From assembly GCF_014851585.1 (NCBI RefSeq), contig NZ_JACVAB010000002.1, positions 434,001 to 498,000 on the forward strand: 64,000 bases of DNA. The letters are read 5' to 3'. This DNA comes from Agrobacterium sp. AGB01. Lineage in GTDB: Bacteria > Pseudomonadota > Alphaproteobacteria > Rhizobiales > Rhizobiaceae. Position 1 is the first letter of the stretch. Each line of letters begins with the position of its first letter. Below, one piece after another: positions 4,398 through 23,137 of this stretch. Under the pieces are notes generated by a model, which worked only from the letters and a program-made list of their open reading frames with translations, had not been told where the DNA came from and made no database searches. A program made the position numbers and the translations under genes.

Positions 4398-5516
4398 ATG
4401 AAAATTGCCTCAGTTCACCCCTTTATTCTCCACCTGCCACTGACTTCGGATTCCATTTCAGATTCAACGCACAACATCACCCATTGGGGTGTGGTTGGTA
4501 CCAAGATCGTCACCGATGATGGTCTGGAAGGCTATGGTTTTACCGGTACGCACTCACATCTTGCATCAGACCGGTTGATCACTTCATGCATTCAAAATTG
4601 TTACGCACCGCTACTGATCGGTGAAGATGCGTCGGATCACTCGCGCCTTTGGACGAAACTGGCGCGCAATCCGGCACTGCAATGGGTCGGCCGCGCCGGC
4701 ATCACCCATCTGGCGCTTGCGGCTGTTGATGTCGCCCTGTGGGATTTGAAGGCCAAGAAGGCAGGCGTACCGCTGTGGAGTTATCTCGGTGGTGCCCGAA
4801 CCAAAGGTGTCGAGGCTTACAACACTGATATTGGTTGGCTTTCCTTTAGCAAGGACCAATTGCTTGCCGGATCGGCAAAGGCTGTGGAAGAGGATGGCTT
4901 CACACGCATCAAGCTCAAGGTTGGGCATGATGACCCCAATGTCGATATTGAGCGCCTGACTGCAGTGCGTAAACGTCTGGGCAGTTCCATTCGCATCGCC
5001 ATTGATGGCAACGGCAAATGGGATTTGCCAACCTGCCAACGGTTCTGTGCATCAGCGCAGGGGCTGGATATTTTCTGGTTTGAGGAACCACTCTGGTACG
5101 ATGATGTCGGCAGCCATGCGACGCTGGCGCGCAACACCACTATTCCTGTCGCACTTGGTGAGCAGCTTTATACGGTTGATGCCTTCCGTTCCTTCATCGA
5201 GGCTGGTGCAGTTCAATATGTACAGCCTGATGTGACGCGCCTTGGTGGCATTACAGAATATATTCAGGTGGCCGACCTTGCGCTGGCGCATCGTTTGCCG
5301 GTCGTGCCGCATGCCGGCGAAATGAGCCAAGTGCATGTGCACCTCAGCTATTGGCATCCGGCCTCGACCATTCTGGAGTATATTCCATGGATCAAGGACC
5401 ATTTCGAAGAGCCGATCGCGGTCAAGGATGGTGTCTACGCGCGTCCTGAACGTCCAGGCGCCAGCACCACCATTCTGGCGGAAAGTTTCGCCCGCTATGG
5501 CAAAAGCCTGAGCTAG
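4398..5516 (+). CDS. Mandelate racemase/muconate lactonizing (enolase superfamily) enzyme, probable sugar-acid dehydratase
   Basis: The 372-residue enzyme has all the active-site landmarks of the enolase superfamily: Lys172-x-Lys174 (RIKLKVG), metal ligands Asp203 (IDGNGKW), Glu229 (WFEEPLW) and Glu255 (LGEQL), and His305 (VPHAGE). KxK plus a His places it in the mandelate racemase-like subgroup, where most members dehydrate aldonic or aldaric acids. It would abstract the proton alpha to a carboxylate, in the cytosol. The exact substrate cannot be read from the sequence. The ATG at 4398 follows AGGAGC; the frame is open 35 codons further upstream without family features. It is probably controlled by the divergent GntR regulator. 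Confidence 0.87.
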
Positions 5517-5604
5517 GACCGGCCCTCGATCTCAATTTTGATGTGCCCGATCTCAGCCGATCGGACACATCACATAAAGGTAATCAATGGAAAATGGAAT
5601 TTCA

Positions 5605-5619
5605 TGAGTTTTTTATTCA
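5605..5619. promoter_or_regulatory. IRO box (RirA operator) upstream of hasI
   Basis: TGA-N9-TCA, extended to CATGA-N9-TCATG, about 90 bp before the sigma-factor start. TGA-N9-TCA is the iron-responsive operator recognised by RirA in rhizobia, so this promoter is probably repressed when iron is sufficient. Motif seen; binding inferred. Confidence 0.65.
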
Positions 5620-5707
5620 TGTAATTCTGGATCGGAGTTGTTCCGGCTGATATACGAGCTTGGACTGGGTCGGGGGCATCCGATATTGATTAGCTGTTTG
5701 GTATAAA

Positions 5708-6208
5708 ATGGGCATCCGGGAAGACGACAAGCGTTACGCCGTTTATGTCGCGCATCGCCTTGATCTTATTAAATATGCCACACCCATTCTTGGCTCCCGA
5801 GAGGAGGCCGAGGATGTTGTGCAGGAAGCCTTTATCAAATTTGTACCGCAGCAGGCCGAAGCGCCGAGTGCCCTGAAAGCCTATCTCTTCCGTGTTGTCC
5901 GCAATCTGGCGCTAGATGTTCGCAAACGTCGTCGCTACGACCTTCGGGAAAGACCGGATGACACACCCTTCTGGGGGCTGCCGCAGGACCATGGCTCACC
6001 CGAAGACCATGCTTTGTTTTGCGATCAAGTTCGTCAGGTCAGCGAAATCCTGAGCGACATGCCAGCGGACACGCGCCTCGCGTTGGAAATGCACCGTTTT
6101 GGCGGCTATCGCATGGAGGATATTGCGGTGCATTTGGGTGTCTCGGTTGCCACTGCACACCGTCTGGTCAAGACCGGGCTTGCGGAATTTGTCAGGAAAA
6201 TGAAATGA
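5708..6208 (+). CDS. hasI: ECF sigma factor, FecI/HasI type
   Basis: A 166-residue sigma-70-like protein with only regions 2 and 4. Region 2 contains LDLIKYATPILGSREEAEDV and QEAFIKF; region 4 carries the helix-turn-helix YRMEDIAVHLGVSVATAHR. Such FecI-type sigmas direct RNA polymerase to the promoter of a TonB-dependent receptor after a signal comes through a FecR-like protein. Here the next genes are a coupled 39-codon ORF, a FecR homologue, a receptor with a signalling domain and a HasA-like hemophore, the order of the Serratia has locus. The symbol rests on that context. The stop codon overlaps the following ATG (ATGA). An IRO box lies upstream. Confidence 0.9.
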   Translation: MGIREDDKRYAVYVAHRLDLIKYATPILGSREEAEDVVQEAFIKFVPQQAEAPSALKAYLFRVVRNLALDVRKRRRYDLRERPDDTPFWGLPQDHGSPEDHALFCDQVRQVSEILSDMPADTRLALEMHRFGGYRMEDIAVHLGVSVATAHRLVKTGLAEFVRKMK

Positions 6209-6324
6209 ACGTCCAAAAAAATGACGTTTCCATGAAAAAAATATTGCGTTCAGTCGTCTCTTTAGAAGGAGAGCATGAAACCGTTACTTTTACTCATGAG
6301 AGAACACAGGCAGCACGTCGATGA
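6205..6324 (+). CDS. 39-aa ORF coupled between sigma and anti-sigma genes
   Basis: This short frame begins with an ATG that overlaps the sigma-factor stop (ATGA at 6205-6208) and ends with a TGA that overlaps the hasS start (ATGA at 6321-6324). An AGGA lies at the end of hasI ahead of the start. The 39 residues are polar and mixed-charge (VSLEGEHETVTFTHERTQ) with no membrane segment. I know no family. Perfect coupling on both sides suggests that it is translated, either to carry ribosomes to hasS, which has no usable SD of its own, or as a small protein in the signalling path. A strong SD (AAGGAG, 6267-6272) inside it precedes an ATG at 6275 in a third frame (30 codons), an alternative reading. 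Confidence 0.5.
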   Translation: MNVQKNDVSMKKILRSVVSLEGEHETVTFTHERTQAARR

Positions 6325-7331
6325 ACGATCCCGCGAAAACAGACGCAGGCGAATTGGATGTTTTTGACGAAGCCGCTGACTGGTTCTTACGTCTCGAGGA
6401 AAATTCGGATGATGCACATCTGCTGAAGGAATTCAGCAACTGGCTGGAACTGAGTCCGAACCACCGTCAGGCATGGGAAAAGACCTGTCGTGGCTGGAGT
6501 GTTTTCGGGGCGGTTGAACCGGCCATGCGCTCCCAGTGGGAGAATGCGGGTCAGGCCACAGCGCCACAGCGTCGTGCAATGCGGCGGTTCTCCATGCCGA
6601 GACGAACCTTTTCCCGGTTCGCGCTGGGGGGGGCAACGCTTGCAGTGCTCTGTCTTGTCGCCATGTCCATTCCGGACATGGCCGTTCGTCTGGAAGCGGA
6701 TTACCGCACCAGCAATGGTGAAAGTCTCACCGTGACATTGGCGGATGGCAGTACCGCTGTGCTTGCACCCAAAAGTGCGCTTGCAGTCAATTATCATCAA
6801 GGCCAGCGTGATGTCGCCGTGCTTGCCGGCGAGGTATTTTTTGATGTGATCAAGGATGAGGCCCGACCGTTCGTGGTCGATGTAGGCGATGTCAAAGTGG
6901 AAGTTCTGGGAACCGCTTTTGATGTTGGCATGTCCGACAGCGCAACCATTGTTGCCCTCGCGCGTGGCTCGGTGAAGGCCAGTCTCCGTGACGATCCATC
7001 CGCAACACAAATATTGGTGCCGGGTGAACGGGTGACTGTTGACGGTGCGACAAAACGCATGAGCAAACAGGCGGTTTCTGTCGATGAGATTGGTGCCTGG
7101 CGTCGCGGCGAACTCTATGTTGTGGACGAGACAATCGCAGAAGTTGTCGAAAAGATTGGCAGATATCACTCGGCCTGGATCAGCGTGCCGGATAGGTCGT
7201 TGGCCAATAGCAAGGTGACCGGTTTTTACAATCTCAACGAGCCGGATCAGGCGCTTGAAGCTTTGGTCACGCCCTATGGCGGAAAAATCCGCTCTATATC
7301 GGGATCAGTCAGGATCGTGTCGCGCTTTTAA
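6321..7331 (+). CDS. hasS: FecR/HasS-type anti-sigma regulator
   Basis: The 336-residue inner-membrane protein has a cytoplasmic N-terminal FecR_N (DUF4880) part (residues 14-60, WFLRLEENSDDAHLLKEF and SPNHRQAWEK), one membrane segment at about 101-118, a periplasmic FecR domain (about 125-225, LADGSTAVLAPKSALAV) and a C-terminal domain that would contact the receptor's signalling domain. It should hold the upstream sigma factor inactive until the heme-loaded receptor signals. The start is fixed because the frame has a stop just upstream, at 6297-6299, and the ATG overlaps the preceding 39-codon ORF. Translation is therefore probably coupled. Confidence 0.9.
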   Translation: MNDPAKTDAGELDVFDEAADWFLRLEENSDDAHLLKEFSNWLELSPNHRQAWEKTCRGWSVFGAVEPAMRSQWENAGQATAPQRRAMRRFSMPRRTFSRFALGGATLAVLCLVAMSIPDMAVRLEADYRTSNGESLTVTLADGSTAVLAPKSALAVNYHQGQRDVAVLAGEVFFDVIKDEARPFVVDVGDVKVEVLGTAFDVGMSDSATIVALARGSVKASLRDDPSATQILVPGERVTVDGATKRMSKQAVSVDEIGAWRRGELYVVDETIAEVVEKIGRYHSAWISVPDRSLANSKVTGFYNLNEPDQALEALVTPYGGKIRSISGSVRIVSRF

Positions 7332-7427
7332 GTTTATCGCGGCGTAAAAGTTTCCATTAGTTTACAGTTGGTTACAGACAAAATTCGTTTTGGTTGAAAA
7401 AAAATCCGAGAGCAATCGTCTTTTTGT

Positions 7428-7442
7428 TGAATATGAAATTCA
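7428..7442. promoter_or_regulatory. IRO box (RirA operator) upstream of hasR
   Basis: TGA-N9-TCA inside a longer palindrome, TGTTGAAT-5-ATTCAACA (7425-7442 with flanks), 38 bp before the receptor start. It suggests direct RirA control of hasR in addition to sigma-dependent activation. Confidence 0.65.
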
Positions 7443-7479
7443 ACATTTGCCGCTGTAGGCAAAGAAGACGGGCAGGGTA

Positions 7480-10251
7480 ATGAGTTCTTCCAATAAACAA
7501 AGTGCAAAGCAGCCTGGCGTGGGGCAGACGGGCAAGCGCGTACTTCTTATGGCCAGTACGGCCATGGCAATTTTTTACGGGGTATCAGCGTCGCATGCGC
7601 AGTCATCCGGTGGGGCAACGCCGGTAACGAATGCAACTCAGGCTGAACGTCGTGCTTTCAATATCCCAGCGCAATCGTTGTCGGCTGCGGTTGGCGCATT
7701 TGGTCGCCAGTCGGGCCTGCAGGTGACGCTTGCCTCTCCGGCCTCTGGCAATGTTCGCACCAATGCCGTTACCGGCAGCCTGACCGTTCAGGAAGCTTTG
7801 ACTCAACTGCTCGGTGGCACGGGCATTACATTCAGGTTCACGGGCAATGGCCGGTCGGTGGTTATCGGTGCAGATCAGGCCGCTGCCGACGTGCCGTCAG
7901 CGGATGGTTCCACAATGCTTGAAACCATTACGATCACCGGTAAATCGGGCAGAAACGCTGCATCAGGAGCCGGGTATCAGGGAACACCTGACTGGGTATA
8001 CGAAACTCCTGCCAGCGTCAGCGTTGTCAGCCGCGAGGCCATTCAGTCTGACCTGGGTGCACGTGATGTGCGCGATCTCTTCGACAATGTCGCGGGGACC
8101 TACGTCAACAACTCCGTTTCCAACTCTCCGGCAGTGTCGCCCAATGTTCGCGGTGTGCAAGACATGGGTCGTGTGGTGCTTTCCGTCGATGGTGCGCGCC
8201 AGAACGCTAATCGTACCATTTCAGCGGGTGGCGATAGCTACATTGGTAGTTCTGGTAAGGGATATGTCGAAACGTCCTTTATTCGTGCCGTTGAGGTTGA
8301 ACGGTTAACAGGCGCCAAATCGGGTCTTGCAGGCTCGTTGGCGGGGGCAGTGACATTCCGCACGGTTGGCGCAGACGATATCATCTCGGATGGAAAAGAC
8401 TGGGGTGTCGAGATCGATACGACTGTTGGCACCAACAATCAGCATTTCAACGGTTCCATACTGGCATCGAAGCGTATGGGAGATTCCCCATTCTCGATCA
8501 CCGGCGGCTTCGCGCGCCAGAAGCTTGGCAATTACAAGATTGGCAGCCACGGGGATATTGAGTGGGATGGGGATGAAGACGGTGAAGTTACCTTCATGCA
8601 ACGAGACAATATGTCGTCGCTGTTGAAACTGGAAGGTGATTTCGGAGACGTGACGACCGGCGTAGCATGGACCCATCAGAAGAAGGATTTTGCATGGTTC
8701 ATGGGTGGGCTCAGCGATGAAGAGGCCACAGTTAATACTGTAACCGCCAATCTTGACTGGAACCCCGTCGATAATGACCTGATCGATTTCCGTTCAACAT
8801 TTTGGCTGAACGACACGATGGAAGAGACGCTTCGCCACACCCGGGGCGGTGCTGCAGGTTATCCTGACACACTGATCAGCGCTGATTTCATGAGCTTTGG
8901 TATCAATATCGACAATACCAGCCGTTTTGAAACTGCTGTCGGTCCGGCGACACTGAATTATGGCGTCGAAGCATTCCGTGATCACGGAAATTCCAGTGCG
9001 TCCAGTACATCAATTGATGTGTGGCCGGAATTGGCATCGAACTTTACTTCGTTCAGTCCAGCCGGTCGTCGCGATATGGCAAGTCTCTTTGTCAACGGAG
9101 ACATTGAGCCAACCGATTGGGTCAAACTATCGGCAGGCTTGCGATATGACTGGTATCGGCTCAAGGGTTCGCCGAAATACTACGACTACAGAGATCGTGT
9201 AAATTACATCGCATCCGCCGTCACAACTGAGTATGATTACGTCGCGACATATGATCCGGCACGATTTGCCAGCGCTAACGCCGTTCTGAGAAATATCTGG
9301 TCGACCCGTCAGGGTGAAATCTATAACGGCCAGTTTTACAGAGCTGGCACAACCATTGCTGCCTTAAGCACGCTGGCCGGTTATCCCGAAAACACCGTGA
9401 ATATCGATCGTTCCGGCGGCGCATTGTTGCCGTCCTTCACTGTCGAGTTTGCGCCGGTTGAGTGGTTGCGACCATATGTTAGCTACTCGAAGAGCTACCG
9501 ACCACCGACTGTAACGGAGGCGTTCTTTGCTGGAGACTTGCCAAAAGATGTATCTCCGCTGTCTGTTTATGCACCGAACGAAAGTCTCCGGCCTGAAACA
9601 GCAGAAACCTGGGAAATTGGTGCTAACATCAACTTTGACGGTGTCTTTACAGAGGATGACACGCTTCGTCTGAAGGTGTCCGCTTTCAATCGCAAAATCG
9701 ATGATCTTATTGTGATTGGTTATTTCTATCCATATGCAGGATCTCGACAACTCCAGAGTTATGTCAATACAACTGATGCCACCCGGATGCGCGGAGTCGA
9801 ACTTGAGGGCAACTACGACACCGGTCGCTTTTGGGTCGGTGGTTCTGCGACCTGGTTGGACGCAGAATGGGCGCAAAAGGTGCCAAGCACCTGGTACGGT
9901 CAAACCGTCTCCTCAGACAATGTTCAGATGTACTCGAGCGTGGGTGTGCCGCCAAAACTCAAGGCTACTCTTGATGCCGGTGTGCGTTTCCTCGATAACA
10001 AGCTGGCAATTGGTGGTCGCGTAACCCATTCGACGCCGACATTGTCGCAGGTGAAAACCTTTAATCCGGATGGCGGTTACACATCCAACAAATACACAAA
10101 ACTCGATCTCTACGGTTCCTACCAGTTCAACGATCGCACCACGTTGCGACTGAGCATCGATAACGTAACCGATATCAACCACGTTCCTGCCGGAAGCCGT
10201 TACCCCTCTCCAGGGCGGACCTTCTTCGCCAGTCTGAATCTGAGATTGTGA
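7480..10251 (+). CDS. hasR: TonB-dependent heme/hemophore receptor with signalling domain, HasR type
   Basis: A 923-residue outer-membrane receptor. A signal peptide of about 40 residues ends at ASHA. It is followed by a secretin/TonB N-terminal signalling domain (residues 57-130, FNIPAQSLSAAVGAFGRQSG), a TonB box (ETITIT, about 148-153), a plug (about 170-300, with NVRGVQDMGRVVLSVDGARQ) and a 22-strand barrel ending in an aromatic-rich terminus (RTFFASLNLRL). The length and the hemoglobin/heme-receptor-like plug fit HasR. It would capture heme or the hemophore, import heme with TonB energy and signal to HasS. No HasB-type dedicated TonB gene is present in the window. An ECF-sigma promoter is expected in the 148-bp gap, beside the IRO box. 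Confidence 0.88.
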   Translation: MSSSNKQSAKQPGVGQTGKRVLLMASTAMAIFYGVSASHAQSSGGATPVTNATQAERRAFNIPAQSLSAAVGAFGRQSGLQVTLASPASGNVRTNAVTGSLTVQEALTQLLGGTGITFRFTGNGRSVVIGADQAAADVPSADGSTMLETITITGKSGRNAASGAGYQGTPDWVYETPASVSVVSREAIQSDLGARDVRDLFDNVAGTYVNNSVSNSPAVSPNVRGVQDMGRVVLSVDGARQNANRTISAGGDSYIGSSGKGYVETSFIRAVEVERLTGAKSGLAGSLAGAVTFRTVGADDIISDGKDWGVEIDTTVGTNNQHFNGSILASKRMGDSPFSITGGFARQKLGNYKIGSHGDIEWDGDEDGEVTFMQRDNMSSLLKLEGDFGDVTTGVAWTHQKKDFAWFMGGLSDEEATVNTVTANLDWNPVDNDLIDFRSTFWLNDTMEETLRHTRGGAAGYPDTLISADFMSFGINIDNTSRFETAVGPATLNYGVEAFRDHGNSSASSTSIDVWPELASNFTSFSPAGRRDMASLFVNGDIEPTDWVKLSAGLRYDWYRLKGSPKYYDYRDRVNYIASAVTTEYDYVATYDPARFASANAVLRNIWSTRQGEIYNGQFYRAGTTIAALSTLAGYPENTVNIDRSGGALLPSFTVEFAPVEWLRPYVSYSKSYRPPTVTEAFFAGDLPKDVSPLSVYAPNESLRPETAETWEIGANINFDGVFTEDDTLRLKVSAFNRKIDDLIVIGYFYPYAGSRQLQSYVNTTDATRMRGVELEGNYDTGRFWVGGSATWLDAEWAQKVPSTWYGQTVSSDNVQMYSSVGVPPKLKATLDAGVRFLDNKLAIGGRVTHSTPTLSQVKTFNPDGGYTSNKYTKLDLYGSYQFNDRTTLRLSIDNVTDINHVPAGSRYPSPGRTFFASLNLRL

Positions 10252-10260
10252 CGAATTTTT

Positions 10261-10345
10261 GAGCCGGTGACAGGCTCGAACGCAAGTTCCCCTGACCGGG
10301 CGGCAACCCGGCCAAGGGAGTAACCGTCCTGATTGTTGGATCAGG
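10261..10345 (+). other. Structured leader between hasR and hasA (four stem-loops)
   Basis: Four consecutive stem-loops are visible: GAGCC-7-GGCTC (10261-10277), GAAC-GCAA-GTTC with a GNRA loop (10278-10289), CCGGG-6-CCCGG nested in CCCT/AGGG (10290-10318) and CCTGAT-6-ATCAGG (10328-10345). None is followed by a T-run. They could mark an mRNA processing or stability element that raises hasA relative to hasR, or an unrecognised regulatory RNA. Structure seen; role inferred. Confidence 0.5.
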
Positions 10346-10379
10346 CTAAACCTTAGCAACCAAGCAAAGGAAATTTATC

Positions 10380-11147
10380 ATGGCTACCACTATTTCACTA
10401 ACGTCTGCATCTTCAGATTTCAAATCCTATCTGACGAACTGGAGCAACACGACATACAGCTCCACTTACGGTGCATTCTACGGTAGCGGCCCTGGCCTGC
10501 AGACAGATCCGGCAGTTATCGGTGCAAATCCTTCCTGGGATTACACGCAGTGGGGCAATGGCAACACAAGCGGCGGTAATGGTGTGCTCGTCGGTGGTGC
10601 TTTCGAATATGCCTTCGGTAACCTGACCGGTACTGTCAGCTCGCTGGATTTCGGCACTGGCTACGGTGAATCCTCTTCTGGCATCACCCTGTCGAATGTC
10701 GCGCTCTCGCTCGATCTCGATCCGTCCTTTAACTACAACGGCACGGGTCTTGATGCATTTGACTACGCAATCTACGGCATCACTCGTGGTAACACGCTGA
10801 GCTACCTCTACTCCTACCTGGGTGCCACCGGCACGGTGATTGAAGACACCGCAAGTGACAACATTCTCGTCGGCTTCAGCGGCGCAGACACTTTTGTGTT
10901 CTCCGGCGGCAACGATGTTGTCACCAATGATGGCCCTGCTGGTACATCCGGTTACCAGGACGGCGTTGACAAGCTCGACATCTCTGCTTGGGGCGCTGTC
11001 AACTTCGGCGATCTGACGATCTTCGATGACGCTGGAGATGCTTACGTTGCCTACGGCTCCGACTCCATCCAGCTCGTCGGCGTGAACTCCAGTGTTCTCG
11101 ACGCATCTGACTTCGTCTTCGCAAGCGCAACGGCTCTGGCCGCCTAA
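10380..11147 (+). CDS. hasA: HasA-like secreted hemophore with serralysin-type C-terminal secretion domain
   Basis: A 255-residue secreted protein. Residues 1-150 align by eye with HasA hemophores: YLTNWSN near the start, GGAFEY, SSLDFG and DYAIYGITRGNTL match conserved HasA blocks. Residues 158-247 instead resemble the RTX/peptidase M10 C-terminal domain (GFSGADTFVFSGGNDVV, GVDKLDIS, LDASDFVF), and the end is small and hydrophobic (TALAA), as for type I export. There is no Sec signal peptide, in line with the adjacent hasD/hasE. Tyr77 (FEYAF) fits the HasA heme ligand Tyr75, but the whole protein has no His, so both His32 and the Tyr partner His83 of classical HasA are absent. It also has no Cys. 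AAAGGA lies before the ATG. Confidence 0.82.
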   Translation: MATTISLTSASSDFKSYLTNWSNTTYSSTYGAFYGSGPGLQTDPAVIGANPSWDYTQWGNGNTSGGNGVLVGGAFEYAFGNLTGTVSSLDFGTGYGESSSGITLSNVALSLDLDPSFNYNGTGLDAFDYAIYGITRGNTLSYLYSYLGATGTVIEDTASDNILVGFSGADTFVFSGGNDVVTNDGPAGTSGYQDGVDKLDISAWGAVNFGDLTIFDDAGDAYVAYGSDSIQLVGVNSSVLDASDFVFASATALAA

Positions 11148-11161
11148 GGGAAGACAACGCT

Positions 11162-13009
11162 GTGGGCTTTCAAAACCAGCAGCAAACGCCGCCGCAGTCT
11201 CTGGCTGCGGCGGTCGTTTCGCCCCTCAAGCGCGCCTTCAGCGGTGTTGCGCTCGTCAGCGGCGTGGTCAACATCCTGGCTTTGACCTCACCGATCTTCA
11301 TGCTTCAGGTCTATGACCGGGTGCTGGCCAGCGGTAGCGTGCCAACCCTTGTTGGGCTGGCCCTGCTTGCCGTCGGGCTTTATGCCTTCCAGTGCATGCT
11401 GGATATCATCCGGTCGCGCGTGCTGATCCGCGTCGGTGAATATTTCGACATGCAATATTCCGGTCAGGTGCACGATGCCGTGGTGCGTCTGCCGCTTGCC
11501 ACCCGGACCTCTGGTGATGGTTTGCAGCCGTTGCGTGATCTCGACAATGTCAGGACTTTCGTGTCCGGCACTGGACCGACGGCGTTTTTTGATCTGCCGT
11601 GGATGCCGCTTTATCTCGGCATATGTTTTCTTTTCCATTTCTGGATCGGCGTGACGGCGTTGAGCGGCGCTATCGTGCTGGTGGCATTGACCGTTCTCAC
11701 CAATATCTATTCGCAAAAACCTATTCGCGACACCATCACCGAAAACATGGCGCGCAATCGACTGCTGGAGGCTTCGCGCCGCAATGCCGAAGTTGTTCAC
11801 GCCATGGGGCTGGCCGGGCGGCTTGGCAGGCGCTGGCAGGTGTCTAACGAGGGTTATCTTGCTGCCAATCGCAAGGCTGGTGATGTGGCCGGCAGCCTTG
11901 GCAATATCGCCAAATCGCTGCGCATGGTGTTGCAGTCTGCCATTCTGGCGGTCGGTGCGTGGCTGGTGATTGAGCAGCAAGCCTCTGGTGGTATCATGAT
12001 CGCCAGCTCGATCATGATGGGCCGCGCTTTGGCACCTGTTGATCTCGCCATTTCCAACTGGAAATCATTCGTGGCTGCACGGCAAAGCTGGGCGCGTCTG
12101 CACACACTCTTCACCCAGGTGCCATCGACCGATACATCAATGGCTTTGCCGCGTCCGGTCAAGGATTTGCGGGTCGAGAATGTCACCATTGTGCCGCCCG
12201 GTGAAAAACGACCAACGGTCACCGGGGTTGGTTTTGCTGTCGCTGCTGGTCAGGCGCTTGGCATTATTGGGCCGTCGGGTTCCGGAAAATCCACACTGTC
12301 GCGTATTCTGACGGGTGCCTGGATTCCGGCCGGTGGTAAGGTGCGGATCGATGGGGCCAGCTTTGATCAGTGGGATCGTGAGGCGCTCGGTCGTCACATC
12401 GGTTATCTGCCGCAGGGCGTTGAGCTTTTTGACGGCACGATCGCCGAAAACATCTCCCGCTTTGAGGACAATGCAGATCCGGACGCCATTATTGCGGCGG
12501 CCAAGGCCGCTGGTGCGCATGAACTGATCCTGCGGTTTGAAAAGGGTTACGACAGCAATATAGGTGAGGCCGGTTCGTCGCTGTCCGCCGGTCAGCGTCA
12601 GCGGATCGGTCTGGCGCGTGCGCTTTACGGCGAGCCTTTCCTCGTCGTTCTGGATGAACCGAATGCCAATCTCGATGCCGAAGGTGAGGCTGCTGTGGTG
12701 CGTGCCATGGCGTCGGTGCGGGATCGCAAAGGCATTGTTGTTGTTATTGCTCACCGCCCCAGTGCCATCGGTATCGTCGATTTTGTGCTGATGATGGAAG
12801 ATGGCCGAATGAAGGCTTTTGGACCGCGTGACGAGGTTCTGTCGAAAGTGCTGCGTACACCGTCTGCACCACAACAGCCGGCCGGTGGCTACACCGCTTC
12901 TGCCCATGCGGTAACACCACTGCGGGTGGTTGCCAATGCACAGGCCGCACGGTTTGAAAATGCAAGTGAACCGGATGACCGGAAGGAAGACCCTGATGTC
13001 AAACATTGA
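11162..13009 (+). CDS. hasD: Type I secretion ABC transporter, HasD/PrtD type
   Basis: A 615-residue fused membrane/ATPase exporter. The first 300 residues hold about six membrane segments (VALVSGVVNILALTSPIFML is the first). The ATPase domain (about 335-560) has Walker A GPSGSGKS, signature LSAGQRQRIGLARAL, Walker B FLVVLDEP and the H-loop in VIAHRP. It would pump the hemophore out through HasE and a TolC-like outer-membrane channel. The start is GTG 14 bases after the hasA stop, so the two are in one transcript. It overlaps hasE by 14 bases. No outer-membrane (hasF/tolC) gene is in the window. Confidence 0.92.
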   Translation: MGFQNQQQTPPQSLAAAVVSPLKRAFSGVALVSGVVNILALTSPIFMLQVYDRVLASGSVPTLVGLALLAVGLYAFQCMLDIIRSRVLIRVGEYFDMQYSGQVHDAVVRLPLATRTSGDGLQPLRDLDNVRTFVSGTGPTAFFDLPWMPLYLGICFLFHFWIGVTALSGAIVLVALTVLTNIYSQKPIRDTITENMARNRLLEASRRNAEVVHAMGLAGRLGRRWQVSNEGYLAANRKAGDVAGSLGNIAKSLRMVLQSAILAVGAWLVIEQQASGGIMIASSIMMGRALAPVDLAISNWKSFVAARQSWARLHTLFTQVPSTDTSMALPRPVKDLRVENVTIVPPGEKRPTVTGVGFAVAAGQALGIIGPSGSGKSTLSRILTGAWIPAGGKVRIDGASFDQWDREALGRHIGYLPQGVELFDGTIAENISRFEDNADPDAIIAAAKAAGAHELILRFEKGYDSNIGEAGSSLSAGQRQRIGLARALYGEPFLVVLDEPNANLDAEGEAAVVRAMASVRDRKGIVVVIAHRPSAIGIVDFVLMMEDGRMKAFGPRDEVLSKVLRTPSAPQQPAGGYTASAHAVTPLRVVANAQAARFENASEPDDRKEDPDVKH

Positions 13010-14309
13010 CCAGCGCACTTACGTTTCCGGTTCCATTCGCAAACATCTTGTCATGGCGCTGGTGGTCAGTGTCGCTCTGCTGGGCGGTGTCGGTGGCTGG
13101 GCAGCAACAACAAATCTGGCAGGCGCCATTGTTGCATCCGGCCATCTGGTGGTGGATTCCTATGTGAAGAAAGTTCAGCATCCAACCGGCGGTGTGGTGG
13201 GTGAAATTCTGGTCAGCGAAGGAGATGAGGTCAAGGCCGGTGATATCGTCATGCGGCTGGATGCGACCCAGACAAAGGCCAATCTTGCCATTGTGACCAA
13301 GCGGCTGGATGAGTTGACGGCGCGGTTTGTGCGGCTGGAAGCGGAGCGAGATGGTTTGCCAGAGCTGGTTTTTCCGGTTGCGCTTCACTCGCGGCAGGAC
13401 GATGCCGATGTTGCTGCCGCCATGCGCAGCGAAACCAAGCTGTTTGAATTCCGCAAATCCTTCCGCGAAGGCCGAAAAGCGCAGTTGGCCGAACGCATCA
13501 CCCAGTTCGAACATGAAATCGAGGGGTTGAAGGCGCAGGAGATGGCCTATGAGAAGGGTCTCTCGGTGCTGGAAGCGGAAATCGTTTCGCAGACATCACT
13601 GCGTGAGCAGGGCATCGTTTCCGTCCAGCGCCTGAATAGTTTGCAGACGCAGGCCGCCACATTTGGTGGCGAGCGCGGTGAAAAGATTGCCTATCAGGCA
13701 CAGACGGCAGGCCGTATCACTGAAACCAAGTTGCAGATTTTGCAGATCGATCAGGAACTACGCTCCGAAGTTGGGCGTGAGTTGCGCGAAATTCAGGCCC
13801 AGATGGGGGAATATGTCGAACGCAAGGTTGCCGCTGAAGATGAGTTGAGGCGCATCGATATCGTTGCGCCACAATCCGGTGTCGTGCACCAAATGGCGGT
13901 TCATACCGTGGGCGGTGTGGTCACGCCTGCGGATCCGATCATGCTTGTTGTGCCGGAAGGGGATGATCTTGCGCTGGAGGTGCAAATTGCGCCGAAGGAC
14001 ATCGATCAACTGCAACTGGGACAAAAAGCCGTATTGAGAATGTCTGCCTTCAACCAGCGTGTAACGCCAGAGCTCGAAGGGCATATCAGCCGTATCGCAG
14101 CTGACCTCACCACAGACCAGCGGACCGGATTTTCCTATTATGTGGCCCGTATTGCGGTATCCTCAGGTGAGCGCAGTAAACTCGAAAACGCCACCCTGGT
14201 GCCTGGCATGCCAGCGGAAGCCTTCATCAAGACCAGCGAACGCACGGCACTTTCCTATTTGATGAAACCTTTGTCCGATCAGGTAAACCGCGCATTCCGT
14301 GAGGAGTAA
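12996..14309 (+). CDS. hasE: Type I secretion membrane fusion protein, HasE/HlyD family
   Basis: The 437-residue adaptor has a short cytoplasmic N-terminus, one membrane segment (about residues 18-40, HLVMALVVSVALLGGVGGWA), a lipoyl-like/barrel-sandwich half (HPTGGVVGEILVSEGDEVKAG), a long periplasmic coiled coil (about 95-280) and the second half ending in the HlyD C-terminal domain. It links the HasD pump to the outer-membrane channel. The start at 12996 lies within the end of hasD and follows GGAAGGAAG; the upstream extension of the frame overlaps hasD coding and is not used. It is the last gene of the has locus. Confidence 0.9.
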   Translation: MSNIDQRTYVSGSIRKHLVMALVVSVALLGGVGGWAATTNLAGAIVASGHLVVDSYVKKVQHPTGGVVGEILVSEGDEVKAGDIVMRLDATQTKANLAIVTKRLDELTARFVRLEAERDGLPELVFPVALHSRQDDADVAAAMRSETKLFEFRKSFREGRKAQLAERITQFEHEIEGLKAQEMAYEKGLSVLEAEIVSQTSLREQGIVSVQRLNSLQTQAATFGGERGEKIAYQAQTAGRITETKLQILQIDQELRSEVGRELREIQAQMGEYVERKVAAEDELRRIDIVAPQSGVVHQMAVHTVGGVVTPADPIMLVVPEGDDLALEVQIAPKDIDQLQLGQKAVLRMSAFNQRVTPELEGHISRIAADLTTDQRTGFSYYVARIAVSSGERSKLENATLVPGMPAEAFIKTSERTALSYLMKPLSDQVNRAFREE

Positions 14310-14419
14310 AAGGATTGATGATAGGCAGACGGCCTGCAGACCATTGCAGATCGTTTTCTGTTTTTATGTTATTGTTTCAAATAGTTATCATTTTTCGCCG
14401 AATTACGTGAAAAACCCTC

Positions 14420-14450
14420 TTGTACCTCTAGTTGCTATAGGTCTTAAAAA
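14420..14450 (+). promoter_or_regulatory. MerR-type dyad promoter of the metal ATPase
   Basis: ACCTCTAG-TTG-CTATAGGT is a 7-of-8 matched dyad placed between a TTGTAC -35-like box (14420-14425) and a T/A-rich -10 about 19 bp further on. Long-spacer dyad promoters are the hallmark of MerR-family metal sensors (ZntR, CadR, CueR). No merR-type gene lies nearby. Confidence 0.5.
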
Positions 14451-14478
14451 AGGAGCGACTGGAAAATGAGGGTTCATT

Positions 14479-16788
14479 ATGGGCACGTCGCACAACACAC
14501 GTTTCAAGATTGACGGCATGGACTGCGCTTCCTGCGCATCCAAGATCGATACGGCGGTTCGCCGTATGCGGGGCGTGGAGGATGTTTCCGTTTCTGTGAC
14601 CGCCGGCACGATGACGGTGACGCATGATGACGTGAGCGACCTGATTGCGATCGGCAAAAAGGTCTCAGGCCTAGGCTATCCGGCAACGCGTCTAGCAGAC
14701 CGTGATGTGAAGCCGGCGCCCGAGCCGCATGTTCATGGTCCCTCATGCTCCCACAATCATGATCATACGGGCCATGATCATACCGGCCACGATAATAGCG
14801 ACCACGACCATGATGACCACGATCATGGGCATGATCACAAACATAACCACGGGCATGACCGTGCGGCGAGTGCAGCGGCCGATGATGGGATTGAAGGGTT
14901 GCATGGTCATGACCACGGCGTCAGTGACGGGCCATGGTGGCGCAGCCGCAAGGGCCGTTTGACGATCATGGCCGGACTGGCACTTGTGCTGGCTTACGGC
15001 ATTGGCCACCTTTTCCCGGCAATCCAGCTTTACGCCTTTACGGCAGCGATGCTGGTTGGCCTGTTTCCCATTGCGCGCCGCGCCATCATGGCGGCCTTGG
15101 CGGGAACGCCATTTTCCATTGAAATGCTGATGACCATTGCCGCCGTCGGCGCGCTGATCATTAACGCTACGGAAGAGGCGGCTGCCGTTGTTTTCCTGTT
15201 TCTGGTTGGCGAACTGCTGGAAGGTGTGGCGGCTGGAACGGCCCGCGCCAGCATCAAATCACTTTCGGCTTTGGTGCCTAAAACTGCTCTGCTGGAAGAA
15301 AACGGCAAAACACGCGAAGTGCCGGCCGAAAGCCTGGCTGTAGGTTCGGTTATTCTGGTTCGTCCCGGTGACCGAATTTCTGCCGATGGCACTGTTATTT
15401 CGGGTGAAAGCGCCATTGATGAAGCACCGGTCACAGGGGAAAGTGTTCCCGTTCGTAAGTCTATTGATGACGCAGTCTTTGCAGGTACGGTCAATGGTGA
15501 CGCAGCTTTGCGGGTGCGTGTGACGGCGGCTGCACAGGATAATACCATTGCCCGTGTGGTCCGGCTGGTCGAAGAGGCACAGGAAAGCAAAGCGCCGACT
15601 GAACGTTTCATCGACCGCTTCTCCAAATATTACACTCCGGGTGTTGTGGTCGTTGCGGCGCTGGTTGCCGTTCTGCCGCCGCTGCTGCTCGGGGCAGACT
15701 GGAGCGAGTGGGTCTACAAGGGTCTCGCCATTCTGCTGATTGGTTGCCCCTGTGCGCTGGTTATTTCCACACCTGCCGCCATTGCCGCCTCGCTGTCGTC
15801 AGGTGCGCGACGTGGCCTGTTGTTGAAGGGTGGCGCAGTGCTTGAAGGGCTTGGCAAGCTGACGGCCGTTGCATTGGACAAGACGGGCACTCTGACCGAA
15901 GGCAAGCCGAAGGTCACAGATGTGCTGGCCTTTGAGAAAACGGCGGTCGAAACGCTGCGTCTCGCCGCTGCCCTTGAAACCGGATCGAGCCATCCGCTGG
16001 CGCTTGCCATTCTGGCCAAGGCGGAAGAAGACGGCGTTGAAATTCCGCCTGTTGACGATGCAAAGGCACTGGGTGGCAAGGGTGTTGCTGCGAGGGTCGA
16101 AGGGATCGACGTCTTCCTTGGGTCGCCCAATGCTGCGGCTGAGCGAGTTACGATCTCGCAGGAACGGCTAGATGCGATTGCCGCGCTGAACGATCAGGGC
16201 AAGACGGTGTCGCTGTTAATTGCCGGTGATGTTTTGTGTGGCGCCATTGCGATGCGTGATGAACCCCGTGCCGATGCGGTTGCTGGTTTGAAGGCGCTGA
16301 CGGACAGTGGCATCAAGGTTGTGATGCTGACAGGCGATAACAAACGCACCGCGACTGCCATCGGCGCGCAGCTTGGCATTGATGTGCGTGCCGAACTGTT
16401 GCCTCAGGACAAGCAGCGTATTGTCGGTGAGCTGCAGAAAGAAGGCTACATCGTTGGCAAGGTCGGAGACGGCATCAATGATGCGCCGGCTCTGGCGGCT
16501 GCCAATGTCGGCATTGCCATGGGTGGCGGAACGGATGTTGCGTTGGAAACCGCCGATGCGGCAATTCTTCACAGCCGGGTTGGGGATGTTGCCCAAATGG
16601 TGTCGTTGTCTCAGCGTACCATGCGCAACATCTTCCAGAATATCGCCATGTCTCTTGGCTTGAAGGCGGTGTTTCTGGTCACCACAATTGCTGGAATTAC
16701 TGGCCTTTGGCCTGCAATTCTGGCGGATACGGGGGCAACGGTGCTGGTTACGCTCAATGCGCTGCGGTTGCTGAAAATCCCCAAGTAA
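14479..16788 (+). CDS. zntA: P1B-type heavy-metal ATPase (Zn2+/Cd2+/Pb2+ efflux), ZntA/CadA type
   Basis: A 769-residue inner-membrane metal pump. Order: an N-terminal HMA domain with GMDCASC (residues 14-20), a His-rich linker (about 83-135, 17 His in some 45 residues, largely HD repeats), membrane segments, the CPC ion motif (GCPCAL, about 422), the phosphorylation loop DKTGTLTEG (about 467), the SSHPLA motif (about 503), TGDN and GDGINDAPALA. CPC with a GMDCASC HMA domain fits the Zn/Cd/Pb subgroup rather than copper; the His-rich stretch points to zinc sensing or buffering. It exports metal from the cytosol at the cost of ATP. A MerR-like dyad promoter precedes it. The gene stands alone. 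Confidence 0.92.
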   Translation: MGTSHNTRFKIDGMDCASCASKIDTAVRRMRGVEDVSVSVTAGTMTVTHDDVSDLIAIGKKVSGLGYPATRLADRDVKPAPEPHVHGPSCSHNHDHTGHDHTGHDNSDHDHDDHDHGHDHKHNHGHDRAASAAADDGIEGLHGHDHGVSDGPWWRSRKGRLTIMAGLALVLAYGIGHLFPAIQLYAFTAAMLVGLFPIARRAIMAALAGTPFSIEMLMTIAAVGALIINATEEAAAVVFLFLVGELLEGVAAGTARASIKSLSALVPKTALLEENGKTREVPAESLAVGSVILVRPGDRISADGTVISGESAIDEAPVTGESVPVRKSIDDAVFAGTVNGDAALRVRVTAAAQDNTIARVVRLVEEAQESKAPTERFIDRFSKYYTPGVVVVAALVAVLPPLLLGADWSEWVYKGLAILLIGCPCALVISTPAAIAASLSSGARRGLLLKGGAVLEGLGKLTAVALDKTGTLTEGKPKVTDVLAFEKTAVETLRLAAALETGSSHPLALAILAKAEEDGVEIPPVDDAKALGGKGVAARVEGIDVFLGSPNAAAERVTISQERLDAIAALNDQGKTVSLLIAGDVLCGAIAMRDEPRADAVAGLKALTDSGIKVVMLTGDNKRTATAIGAQLGIDVRAELLPQDKQRIVGELQKEGYIVGKVGDGINDAPALAAANVGIAMGGGTDVALETADAAILHSRVGDVAQMVSLSQRTMRNIFQNIAMSLGLKAVFLVTTIAGITGLWPAILADTGATVLVTLNALRLLKIPK

Positions 16789-19700: not shown

Positions 19701-20834
19701 ATGCGCATTACAGGCAAATCAACTGTACTTGCAATGGGTCTTCTCGTGTCGAGCGTATGGCCGGCATTTGCGGACAAGGTCACCCTCAAGGACGTCACGG
19801 GCCGTGATGTTGAGGTGAATGTGCCTGTCAAAAATGTCATTCTTGGCGAAGGCCGTCAGATCTATTTCCTTGCTGCTCTGGACAAGAACAACCCGTTTGA
19901 ACACGTGGTTGGCTGGCGCGATGACCTGCCAAAGGCCGACCCTGAAACCTATGAGGCCTATCTGGCCAAATATCCTGACATCGCCAAGCTGCCGACTTTT
20001 GGTGGCATGAAGGATGGTACATTTGACATTGAGCAGGCGGTGGCGCTGAAGCCCGACGTCATCTTGATGAACATCGATGCCAAGACCGCAACGGAAGAGG
20101 CCGGTTACATCGAGAAGCTCGGCAAGGTTGGCATTCCGCTTGTATATGTCGACTTCCGTGAAAAGCCGATGGAAAACACTGAGCCGAGCATGCGCGTCAT
20201 GGGCAAGCTGATGGGCAAGGAGCAACTGGCTGAAGACTTCATCAAGTTCCGCGCCGACAGCATCAAGAGCGTCACGGACGTTCTGGAAAAGAACAATCCG
20301 AAGAAGCCTGTTGTTTTCATCGAACGCGCCGGTGGTTATTCTGATGATTGCTGCATGTCTTTCGGCAACGAGAACTTCGGCAAGATGGTTGAAATTGCCG
20401 GTGGCATCAACATGGCCAAGGACATCATTCCCGGCACTTTCGGCACCGTTAATCCCGAACAGGTCATTGCTTCGAACCCTGACCAGATCATCGTGACGGG
20501 TGGTAAGTGGGACGCTTATGTTCCCGGTGGTAACTGGGTTGGTGTCGGTTATGGCGCTGATCTGAAAGAAGCCCGCCGCAAGCTGGAAAACCTGACCAAG
20601 CGTCCGGCCTTCACCGGTGTGCAGGCGGTCAAGGATGGCAATGTTCATGCCATCTGGCACCAGTTCTACAATAATCCGTACCAGTTCGTTGCCATTCAGG
20701 AAATTGCCAAGTGGCTGCACCCTGATCTGTTCAAAGATCTGGACCCTGAAGCAACCTTCAAGGAACTGCACGCGCGCTTCCTGCCGCTGGATTACAAGCC
20801 CGGCTACTTCGTGTCGCTGAAGGACGCAGAGTAA
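19701..20834 (+). CDS. Iron-chelate ABC transporter substrate-binding protein 1
   Basis: A 377-residue periplasmic binding protein of the BtuF/FepB (PF01497) fold. A signal peptide ends at AFA (about residue 24). The mature part begins with the typical DVTGRDVEV strand, then NVILGEGRQIYFLAAL, and a long backbone helix joins the two lobes. A vicinal Cys pair (DDCCMSFG) and the block HAIWHQFYNNPYQF are shared with the next gene. It would bind ferric siderophore or heme and deliver it to the FecCD-type permease two genes on. An IRO box lies upstream. It is unusual that a near-paralogue follows directly. Confidence 0.85.
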   Translation: MRITGKSTVLAMGLLVSSVWPAFADKVTLKDVTGRDVEVNVPVKNVILGEGRQIYFLAALDKNNPFEHVVGWRDDLPKADPETYEAYLAKYPDIAKLPTFGGMKDGTFDIEQAVALKPDVILMNIDAKTATEEAGYIEKLGKVGIPLVYVDFREKPMENTEPSMRVMGKLMGKEQLAEDFIKFRADSIKSVTDVLEKNNPKKPVVFIERAGGYSDDCCMSFGNENFGKMVEIAGGINMAKDIIPGTFGTVNPEQVIASNPDQIIVTGGKWDAYVPGGNWVGVGYGADLKEARRKLENLTKRPAFTGVQAVKDGNVHAIWHQFYNNPYQFVAIQEIAKWLHPDLFKDLDPEATFKELHARFLPLDYKPGYFVSLKDAE

Positions 20835-20933
20835 AAAATGACGACTGACGGTGCATGGGGGGGTGCCGGTTGATCAGGCGAGGCTGCAAAATTGCGGCCT
20901 CGCCATTTCTGATTAAAGAGAGAGGGACCACCC

Positions 20934-22070
20934 ATGCGGTTCAAGATGTTTCGCCATGTAACGGTGCTCGCCGTTTCGCTTCTGGCAATGCCGGCATTTG
21001 CTGCTGAAATTACCGATGTCACGGGACATACGGTCGAGATCGAGTTGCCCGCCAAGCGCGTGATTGTTGGTGAAGCCCGCCAGATCCACGTTATCGCCGC
21101 GCTGAAAGGTGATCAGACATTCGACAGCATTGTCGGTTGGCGCGATGACCTGATCAAAAAAGATCCTGATAGTTATACGGCCTATGTCGAGAAGTTCCCG
21201 GCATTGGCGGATTTGCCGCGTTTCGGTTACATCCCGCAAGGCGATTTCAGCCTCGAGACCGCAATTTCGCTGACACCTGACGTCATCACATTGAACCTTG
21301 AGGCCGAAAAGGGTGCCAAGGAAAGCGGCTTTGAAGAAAAGGCAGCGGCTGCCGGTATCAAGGTCATCTATCTCGATTTCCGAATTGACCCGGACAAGAA
21401 CAGCGAAAAATCAATCCGTATTCTTGGCCAGCTTTTTGGTGCAGAAAAGCGGGCAGAAGAATTCATTGCCTATCGCCGTGCAGAAATTGCCCGCGTCACC
21501 GACAGGTTGGCTGGCATCAGGGATCTGAAACGTCCTAATGTGTTCATCGAACGCTCGCCAGGTATCTCGGGTGAGAACACCTGCTGCCGCACATTCGGCC
21601 CCGCCAATTTCGGCGCGATGGTTGATCTGGCTGGCGGGCACAATGTCGCCGATGGGATTATCAAGACCACCTTTGGTGACCTCAATCCGGAACAACTCGT
21701 GGTGTCGGATCCTGCCCATGTCATCGTGACCGGCTCCAATTGGGCCGCTGAATCCGATATCAACCAGTTTGTCCCGCTCGGTCGTGGGGCCGACATGGTG
21801 GTGGCGCGAGAACGTCTTGCCAATCTCATGACACGCACGCCATTCCCAAACCTGTCTGCCGTCAAGAATGGTCAGGTTCATGGTGTCTGGCACCAGTTTT
21901 ATGGCGCGCCATATGAGTTTTTCCCAATCCAGCAATTTGCGAAGTGGTTCCATCCGGACATCTTTGCCGATCTGGACCCGGAGAAGAATTTTGAGGAATT
22001 CCATAGGAAATTCCTGCCGGTGACGTATAAGCCGGGATATTTCGTCTCTCTCGAAAAAGGTTCGAACTGA
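20934..22070 (+). CDS. Iron-chelate ABC transporter substrate-binding protein 2
   Basis: A 378-residue paralogue of the preceding protein, with a signal peptide ending at AFAAE. Shared blocks include VGWRDDL, TCCRTFGPANFGAMVDLAGG and VHGVWHQFYGAP, so the vicinal Cys pair is kept. The two probably arose by tandem duplication and may bind different chelates, but the ligand cannot be read. The stop overlaps the permease start (ATG at 22070), giving tight coupling with the membrane component. AGAGAGAGGGA lies before the start. Confidence 0.86.
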   Translation: MRFKMFRHVTVLAVSLLAMPAFAAEITDVTGHTVEIELPAKRVIVGEARQIHVIAALKGDQTFDSIVGWRDDLIKKDPDSYTAYVEKFPALADLPRFGYIPQGDFSLETAISLTPDVITLNLEAEKGAKESGFEEKAAAAGIKVIYLDFRIDPDKNSEKSIRILGQLFGAEKRAEEFIAYRRAEIARVTDRLAGIRDLKRPNVFIERSPGISGENTCCRTFGPANFGAMVDLAGGHNVADGIIKTTFGDLNPEQLVVSDPAHVIVTGSNWAAESDINQFVPLGRGADMVVARERLANLMTRTPFPNLSAVKNGQVHGVWHQFYGAPYEFFPIQQFAKWFHPDIFADLDPEKNFEEFHRKFLPVTYKPGYFVSLEKGSN

Positions 22071-23137
22071 TGGCTTCCTTGAGTGAAACCGAGGTCAAAG
22101 TAACAGGGCGCGATCAATATCGCGCTCTTGCCACACGCAGGATTATCATTCTGGCGGGGCTGGTTTTTGCCCTGTGTCTCAGTCTTGCGGCAGACATGGC
22201 TCTTGGCCCGGCGCGATACACTTTATCGCAGGTTGTTGGTGCGATCCTGGATCCGGCTTCGGTCACTGACCAGCTTCGTGTGGTTATCTGGGATATTCGT
22301 ATGCCGATTGCCTTGATGGCCGTAACCGTCGGGGCATCGCTTTCGGTTGCCGGTGCGCAGATGCAGACCATCTTGTCGAACCCGCTTGCCAGCCCGTTTA
22401 CGCTTGGTATCTCGGCCGCCGCCAGCTTTGGCGCTGCTTTGGCACTGGTGGGGGGCGTGGCGATTTTTCCTGGTGCCGTACACTACATGGTGCCGATCAA
22501 CGCGTTTTTGATGGCGATGCTGGCGGCGATGTTCATCCACTTCGCCTCGACCATGCGCGGTGTCAGTGTTGAGACCATCGTCCTTCTTGGGATCGCCTTG
22601 GTGTTCACCTTCAACGCGGCGCTGTCGCTGCTCGAATATTTGGCATCGGAACAGGCATTGGCCGCAGTTGTGTTCTGGACCATGGGCAGCCTGACCAAGG
22701 CAACATGGATGAAGGTCTATGTGACGGGTGGCATCATCGTGCTGACGGTGCCTTTGTTCATGAAAAACGCCTGGGCGCTGACTGCACTTCGTCTTGGTGA
22801 CGACAAGGCTGCCAGCATGGGCGTCAATGTTCGTCGCCTGCGTTTGCAGACCATGCTGACCGTCAGCCTGCTGGCTGCCATTCCTGTGTCCTTTGTCGGG
22901 ACAATCGGTTTTGTAGGTCTGGTTGGCCCGCACATTGCGCGTATGGTGGTGGGTGAGGACCAGCGCTTCTTCCTGCCGGGGTCGGTCATCTGCGGTGCAC
23001 TGCTGTTGTCCGTGACCTCGGTTGTCAGCAAGATGCTTATTCCCGGCGCTATCCTGCCGATCGGTGTCATCACCGCGCTGGTTGGCGTTCCCTTCTTCTT
23101 CGTTCTGATCTTTTCCAACAGGAGGCGCGCATGGTAG
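22070..23137 (+). CDS. FecCD-family iron-chelate ABC permease
   Basis: A 355-residue integral membrane protein of the BtuC/FecCD family, with about ten hydrophobic segments. Family signatures are visible: LSVAGAQMQTILSNPLASP near residue 95 and the coupling region FVGTIGFVGLVGPHIARM near 280. It forms a homodimeric channel for iron chelates together with the ATPase encoded next, whose start it overlaps by seven bases. A single permease serves two binding proteins here. GLVGPHIAR is the ATPase-contact loop of this family. Confidence 0.9.
   Translation: MASLSETEVKVTGRDQYRALATRRIIILAGLVFALCLSLAADMALGPARYTLSQVVGAILDPASVTDQLRVVIWDIRMPIALMAVTVGASLSVAGAQMQTILSNPLASPFTLGISAAASFGAALALVGGVAIFPGAVHYMVPINAFLMAMLAAMFIHFASTMRGVSVETIVLLGIALVFTFNAALSLLEYLASEQALAAVVFWTMGSLTKATWMKVYVTGGIIVLTVPLFMKNAWALTALRLGDDKAASMGVNVRRLRLQTMLTVSLLAAIPVSFVGTIGFVGLVGPHIARMVVGEDQRFFLPGSVICGALLLSVTSVVSKMLIPGAILPIGVITALVGVPFFFVLIFSNRRRAW

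Follow-up and report, generated by a model that had tools for sequence, protein, structure and literature searches.

In the textbook Has system, haem passes from a His/Tyr pair on the hemophore HasA to a His/His pair on the receptor HasR. Going by the title of a 2014 report by Kumar, replacement of Tyr75 or His83 reportedly has a minimal effect on hemin acquisition by HasAp, so that losing His83 alone would not necessarily make a hemophore non-functional; the Tyr-His motif of HasAp is said, in a 2021 title by Dent, to be critical for release to HasR. The haem ligands of HasR are given in passages of two papers as His189 in the plug and His603 in loop L7 (PMC6981324, PMC11442138), and haem binding via Tyr75 alone is described for Yersinia pestis HasA in part of a third (PMC9627568). 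A site of one axial tyrosine with a helper tyrosine is chemically possible for pentacoordinate hemin, as described for the CR domain of Corynebacterium ChtA in an excerpt of PMC12494546, a protein that differs from the one studied here in its unrelated fold, its Gram-positive system and its having no HasR partner.

The window (the whole 64,000-nucleotide stretch of Agrobacterium sp. AGB01 DNA analysed here) carries an operon encoding a protein that is like HasA of S. marcescens, P. aeruginosa and Y. pestis in its N-domain profile, its secondary-structure order, the position of Tyr75 and its gene's place in the hasI-hasS-hasR-hasA-hasD-hasE type order. Unlike HasA, it has no His32, no His83 and no PF06438 match, both its haem loops are shortened, and it bears an additional RTX/M10_C-like tail. 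The receptor shares with HasR (3csl) an STN domain, a plug, a barrel, the RPP...PN box and the same operon position, but has no equivalents of His189 and His603, an enlarged, Tyr-bearing plug loop and two other histidines that are invariant in its clade. The features of the operon are as follows.

5708-6208, + strand: ECF sigma factor, HasI-like (Sigma70_r2/r4_2; TIGR02937 over cut-off)
6321-7331, + strand: FecR-type anti-sigma factor, HasS-like (PF04773, E 4e-21)
7480-10251, + strand: HasR-type TonB-dependent receptor with STN signalling domain (TIGR01785; PDB HasR 3csl)
10380-11147, + strand: putative hemophore ORF, ATG start, 255 aa
10380-10829, + strand: HasA-like N-domain, residues 1-150 (hhalign to the HasA set with controls; AF2 mean pLDDT 91.4)
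10608-10610, + strand: Tyr77 codon, presumed iron ligand, aligned with HasA Tyr75 (hhalign alignment; conservation in relatives)
10830-11144, + strand: RTX/serralysin-type C-terminal tail, presumed secretion domain, residues 151-255 (Pfam, A1 profile, AF2, relatives)
11162-13009, + strand: PrtD/HasD-type type I secretion ABC transporter (TIGR01842, 804.8 bits, cut-off 510)
12930-14309, + strand: HlyD/HasE-type membrane fusion protein (TIGR01843, 365.6 bits, cut-off 209; mechanical ORF, an inner ATG may be the true start)

We consider this locus to be probably a has-type haem operon with a Tyr-only, HasA-fold hemophore, an RTX export tail and a HasR-type receptor without the classical histidines, and would give this reading a probability of about 0.6; a hemophore function is the one best supported by the operon, the homology and the invariant Tyr. 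In the mechanism we propose, with haem as the presumed cargo, the PrtD/HlyD pair would, judging from family membership, export the hemophore via its RTX-like C-terminal tail. The HasA-fold N-domain would then take up ferric haem, with Tyr77 as axial ligand, probably in a five-coordinate site, and with neighbouring aromatics helping. The hemophore would dock on its cognate HasR-type receptor, which would pass the cargo inward and whose STN domain would signal to FecR and then to the ECF sigma factor.

Gene order and distribution of the operon

The order ECF, FecR-type, HasR, HasA-like protein in the HasA slot, PrtD-type ABC and HlyD-type is has-type, and the gene does lie, as the earlier note had it, between hasR and hasD/hasE, with the HasR-type receptor on one side and the PrtD/HlyD exporter genes on the other. 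PF06438 HasA proteins at three other loci (L045-L047) are flanked by ECF, FecR, HasR, PrtD and HlyD in the same order, and the order ECF-FecR-HasR-X-PrtD-HlyD recurs in the hemophore family, which is unnamed. A database search recovered 42 relatives, which form alignment A1, with the window protein itself taking the place of P0001, to which it is 98% identical. Scanning named genomes yielded 34 loci, 23 of them (L051-L073) with a full-length relative; L040/L052 and L041/L055 are the same loci and one of each was counted. HasR adjoins the hemophore at all 23, PrtD and HlyD are present at 22 (the contig ends at L071), and an ECF gene is found at 19.

Main-clade hosts include Agrobacterium, Rhizobium, Ciceribacter, Brucella endophytica, Roseomonas, Roseibium and Pannonibacter, and the main hemophores form one group in the N-domain tree (support 96/95). 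A sister group is represented in eight genomes and by 53 database proteins, the best 53 of 575 matches (down to E 7.5e-38, the next being 3.6e-26). Among 297 genomes of the host family the A1 profile matches 85, mostly in the tail only, with full-length or nearly full-length relatives in 7 (the window's included); among 397 genomes of the order such relatives occur in 6, again including the window's, and most matches are tail only. Where relatives carry database names, these are hypothetical protein, hemolysin or calcium-binding protein, hemolysin being used for some sister proteins of Sinorhizobium meliloti, Ensifer adhaerens and A. larrymoorei, and no paper recognisable by its title or the start of its abstract as describing the hemophore family was found among the matches listed from open-licence PMC texts. 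Our reading would supply a likely role for entries so named in Agrobacterium, Rhizobium, Sinorhizobium and their relatives.

The hemophore is present in 21 of the 39 genomes of the window's genus, 19 of which (besides those of the window and G510, a sister-group genome) score about 350 bits. The window operon groups with those of Brucella endophytica, a Hyphomicrobiales MAG and Roseomonas, and this position outside most carriers of its own genus suggests that it was acquired by horizontal replacement. Three sister operons (L039, L120 and L121) have two tandem hemophore genes before the exporter genes, and the sister genome G1414 has a second operon copy (L123) that is broken, its receptor, ABC and HlyD genes being split over several ORFs, in addition to a copy with whole ORFs (L124).

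Composition and domains of the hemophore ORF

The product of 10380-11147 contains 0 His, 0 Cys and 16 Tyr, which bears out the earlier statement that it has no His. It is acidic, its only basic residues are Lys15, Lys198 and Arg136, and its sole Met is at position 1. With the 1.9% His of the six neighbouring ORFs as expectation, the absence of His from 255 aa has p ~0.008, and since 27 of the 42 A1 proteins (window protein included) have no His anywhere, this absence is a family trait. The His-free, Cys-free ORF between a HasR-type receptor and a PrtD/HlyD exporter is confirmed as real. Given no His or Cys and 16 Tyr, tyrosine is by far the likeliest ligand if the hemophore binds haem iron via a side chain.

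The earlier note took residues 1-150 as HasA-like and proposed comparison with PF06438 and structure prediction; the likeness stood in profile-profile comparison and in the order of predicted secondary structure, but not in searches with PF06438 or in a profile search of PDB sequences. More specifically, PF06438 has no match in the product at E<=1 and 0 matches in the window's own genome, the A1 profile, run against PDB sequences at E<=10, matched no HasA chain and just three chains of AlgE epimerases, through its tail, and searches of solved structures with the window protein and with P0003 returned nothing at E<=1. A missing HasA match, by which the note would have its reading refuted, thus applies to the Pfam model and to the profile search of PDB sequences, but not to profile-profile comparison. 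PF06438 is itself rare: it matches in 5 of the 398 phylum genomes and none of the 337 class genomes, and in 3 of 60 and 2 of 76 genomes around known matches. In hhalign, the A1 N-domain matches seven HasA proteins with Prob 92.5 (E 5e-7), nine HasA-RTX proteins with Prob 96.2 and all 16 together with Prob 97.4 (E 1.3e-11), the E-values being those of a single pair comparison; a sister-inclusive N-domain profile gives Prob 96.3, 95.7 and 97.6 against the same three sets. The match spans ~125 columns. Real scores were 47.3-76.6, those of reversed templates 12.8-16.7 and those of column shuffles at most 28.7, and 0 of 60 shuffles equalled the real score in each of the six comparisons. These comparisons support homology of the N-domain to HasA at the profile-profile level only.

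The hhalign alignment pairs Tyr77 with HasA Tyr75, Gly80 with His83, F33/Y34 with the FY of HasA GGFYGG, Y55 with the Tyr of SQYA, and D128 and Y132 with the His and Tyr of the HasA helix motif. Tyr77 lies in FEYAF, just as the earlier note read it, and the HasA histidines that the note gave as missing are both absent. The AF2 models of the window protein (mean pLDDT 91.4, pTM 0.88) and of HasA L048 (82.7 and 0.81) have in common a strand, a helix, strands and two helices in order, with Tyr77 and the Tyr75 of L048 each next to last in the matching strand; the window model has in addition a short helix at 44-49 and a beta-rich tail at the end, and the L048 model a short helix at 124-129 and a C-terminal helix. 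Loop A1 has 9 residues in the window protein versus 16 in L048, where it is of low confidence, and the Tyr-bearing strand is separated from the next by 2 residues in the window protein (67-78/81-98) versus 7 in L048 (65-76/84-99). With the Tyr75-presenting loop of HasA reduced to a tight turn, Tyr77 may point elsewhere.

These comparisons bear on whether the ORF could encode an ordinary RTX secreted protein that is unrelated to HasA and stands in the operon by chance. The lack of a Pfam HasA match and of a HasA chain among the PDB profile matches, the database names of the relatives and the commonness of the tail type (the 85 of 297 genomes above) would fit such a protein, whereas the ~125-column match with its controls, the shared secondary-structure order and the adjoining HasR at 23 of 23 named-genome loci speak against it. 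We rejected this explanation on the profile-profile match with controls and regard it as very improbable.

The earlier note had also assigned the C-terminal ~90 residues to the RTX/peptidase M10 C-terminal type. This is clear in relatives, where at E<=0.1 11 of 15 match PF00353 and 5 of the 15 match Peptidase_M10_C, but weak in the window protein alone, in which PF00353 stays below its cut-off (16.8 bits, cut-off 23, E 0.0069); the A1 profile matches the AlgE6 RTX module (2ml2, E 0.0013). The C-terminal third of the protein is like the serralysin/AlgE RTX modules (PF08548, PF00353), from which it differs in sitting on a HasA-like domain and in having few canonical repeats. A HasA-like N-part with an RTX-type tail is also seen in HasA-RTX fusions (P0043-P0050, e.g. 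from Rhizobium sp. DBTS2; L005 and L037 in G307); unlike the window protein, these retain both the Tyr and a closely following His, and PF06438 matches occur in several of them (P0043, P0044, P0045 and P0049). The modular hemophore with an unusual haem site that the earlier note described thus holds as to the HasA-type N-domain, the RTX-like tail and the absent histidines, but the trait is family-wide, and the modularity is not unique because fusions of HasA with an RTX tail that match PF06438 are already in the databases. Overall, the first reading of 10380-11147 as a HasA-like hemophore is partly supported.

In the fusion-bearing genome G307, a 724-aa ORF (L037:10563-12737, - strand) combines a HasA-like start with long RTX-like repeats, as read by eye, and adjoins a haem-type receptor. 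Residues 196-232 of the Agrobacterium-type hemophores (11 of loci L054-L073) occur as two or three alternative tail cassettes over a near-constant N-domain.

Tyr77, the absent histidines and the receptor

Position 77 is Tyr in 42 of 42 main and 52 of 53 sister proteins, the 53rd (P0118) being a short row with a gap there, and over these 95 proteins only Gly61, Gly84 and Gly92 are as conserved within the N-domain. An exception is the second tandem sister copy of G1417 (L120:9225-9959), which has Leu. The aromatic positions of the HasA haem pocket are retained in the window clade (F33/Y34, Y55, Y77 and Y132). In 11 Agrobacterium-type genes (55 pairs) the N-domain has a dN/dS of ~0.04, and the tail of the same genes one of 0.17, with high dS.

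The column of HasA His83 holds Gly in 40 of 42 main and 49 of 53 sister proteins, otherwise Asn or Ala and never His. His83 is invariant in the 12 HasA and HasA-RTX proteins that were aligned (of 16 collected), and its loss may therefore mean that the haem site has been lost. A His six residues after the Tyr is kept in L049, a relative of Y. pestis HasA, and in the solved HasA 4xzd. The His32 equivalent (loop A1) is absent from the window protein, His32 not being universal in HasA. The N-domain is His-free in 36 of 42 main versus 4 of 53 sister proteins; the sister hemophores are not His-free, since 48 of the 53 sister database proteins have a His at window position 136. As a replacement ligand this His136 was left as a weak candidate: read by eye, it is carried by only 4 of the 11 gene copies at the eight sister loci and so is not needed for a His/His receptor. 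Arg136 of the window protein was not used as a counterpart of HasAyp Arg144, the numbering being unconfirmed on the available relative.

By analogy with HxuA, which PMC11442138 describes as acting without detectable haem affinity, the protein might hold no haem itself and instead dock on foreign haem proteins or on the receptor, promoting haem release or signalling. Such a role would suit the absence of both HasA histidines, the shortening of both haem loops and the acidic composition with no Cys or His and one Arg, but no N-domain position is more conserved than Tyr77, which is equalled only by three Gly, and such constancy would be difficult to account for unless the residue had a chemical role; we consider this docking role improbable.

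The window receptor, read here as the partner of a Tyr-only hemophore, scores 511 bits against TIGR01785 (cut-off 317) and matches PDB HasR 3csl with E 2.6e-75. It has eight His, none of them equivalent to HasRsm His189 or His603. An alignment of 35 receptors was compared, omitting L066 and L071 (cut by contig ends) and the broken copy L123, L070 being the same as the L119 receptor. All 23 main-clade receptors (22 distinct) lack both equivalents. All 8 sister receptors, which likewise go with hemophores lacking His83, keep both, as do 3 of the 4 classical receptors. In the fourth classical receptor, L047, the plug position is occupied by Tyr and the L7 loop contains no His, so that loss of His189 and His603 is not unique to the window clade. 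At that locus (L001/L047, G222) a classical HasA with the His/Tyr/His pattern stands beside the HasR without either ligand, and a receptor fragment of another genome (L002, G334) has the same L7 loop. In the receptor tree a branch with 100/100 support separates the main group from all other rows, the 8 sister ones included; reading the change as a loss rests on the classical outgroup rows, one of which is a very long branch. By a stepwise route, His83 of the hemophore would have been lost first, as in the sister clade with its still His/His receptor, and the receptor would have changed next, once, in the ancestor of the window clade. Loss of HasR Ile671 was also considered as part of this change, but a short loop L8 is common to main and sister receptors and so does not track the loss of the receptor histidines.

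As the receptor lacks both HasR haem histidines, hand-over would have to use other residues. All 23 main-clade receptors carry both His399 and His850, against 2 of 8 and 3 of 8 sister receptors, respectively, and 0 of 4 classical ones; going by sequence pattern, the two seem to lie near the outer ends of barrel strands. Their invariance alone is not special, because 167 of the 923 receptor columns are invariant in the main set, yet set against the sister group it suggests that the receptor's haem ligands may have moved rather than vanished. The plug loop is longer in the main clade and contains at least one Tyr in 23 of 23 receptors versus 3 of 12 others, counting any Tyr in a loop rich in Gly, Ser and Tyr and no single aligned column. 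Candidates for the hand-over would thus be His399 with His850, or a Tyr in the enlarged plug loop. We tentatively propose, at somewhat less than even odds, a rewired haem relay in which neither partner uses the known His ligands and haem would go from Tyr77 to the new receptor ligands; its special case, an all-tyrosine relay from Tyr77 to a plug-loop Tyr, we hold to be distinctly unlikely.

We know of no earlier case in which hemophore and receptor are both without the classical histidines. The sister clade, without hemophore His83 but with His/His receptors, and the clade that has the classical histidines in neither partner form a natural experiment, and with two natural protein sets to compare, which ligands haem transfer needs becomes directly testable.

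Regulation, linked importer and cargo

Two further features flank the operon.

5605-5619, + strand: TGA-N9-TCA palindrome, RirA-box-like, 103 nt upstream of the ECF gene
19701-23883, + strand: possibly associated ABC importer (YiuA-like binding proteins 19701-20834 and 20934-22070; FecCD permease 22070-23137; ATPase 23131-23883)

TGA-N9-TCA is given as the RirA motif in passages of PMC8822346. Between 220 nt ahead of the ECF start and 30 nt past it, such sites occur in 18 of the 25 loci with a located ECF start (L044, L051, L053, L066, L071, L119, L121, L122 and L123 being left out) versus 1.6 expected from first-order Markov resampling, 11 of the 18 being near-copies from Agrobacterium. We infer that transcription of the operon is probably iron-repressed by RirA.

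The importer lies downstream of the operon in the window. At 10 of 11 Agrobacterium-type loci a matching block immediately precedes the ECF gene, but other genomes have this importer distant from the operon or not linked to it. It resembles the siderophore-type YiuA, not HmuT, and Arg occupies two of the three positions that make up the basic triad described for YiuA. Elsewhere in the window's genome, HutX and a haem-type ABC ATPase score over their cut-offs ~90 kb away, and two further receptors exceed the haem-receptor cut-off.

The loss of both HasR haem residues also fits a changed cargo, and the main rival to haem is another Fe(III) chelate or tetrapyrrole, which the HasA-fold protein and its receptor would carry by means of Tyr77 and polar ligands. 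In favour of it are the distribution of the receptor histidines (gone in 23 of 23 main-clade, kept in 8 of 8 sister receptors), the YiuA-like importer with its two Arg at 10 of 11 Agrobacterium-type loci, and the further haem-type receptors and HutX/haem ABC locus, by which haem would already be served. However, the window clade retains the haem-pocket aromatics of HasA, the receptor is still above the TIGR01785 haem-receptor cut-off, and linkage of the importer is limited to Agrobacterium-type loci; we judge a changed cargo to be unlikely, and keep to haem as the presumed cargo of the operon.

Directly downstream of the operon, the ORF at 14479-16788 looks, on inspection by eye, like a heavy-metal P-type ATPase that includes a His-rich stretch, and no homologue of it was seen within the flanks covered at other loci. 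An Rfam scan of 5400-14500 gave nothing at gathering scores. Around the intergenic region between hasR and the hemophore gene (10252-10379), the RNA of 10245-10385 folds better than shuffled sequences (z -2.87; 1 of 200 as good), and this fold possibly serves uneven expression within the operon.
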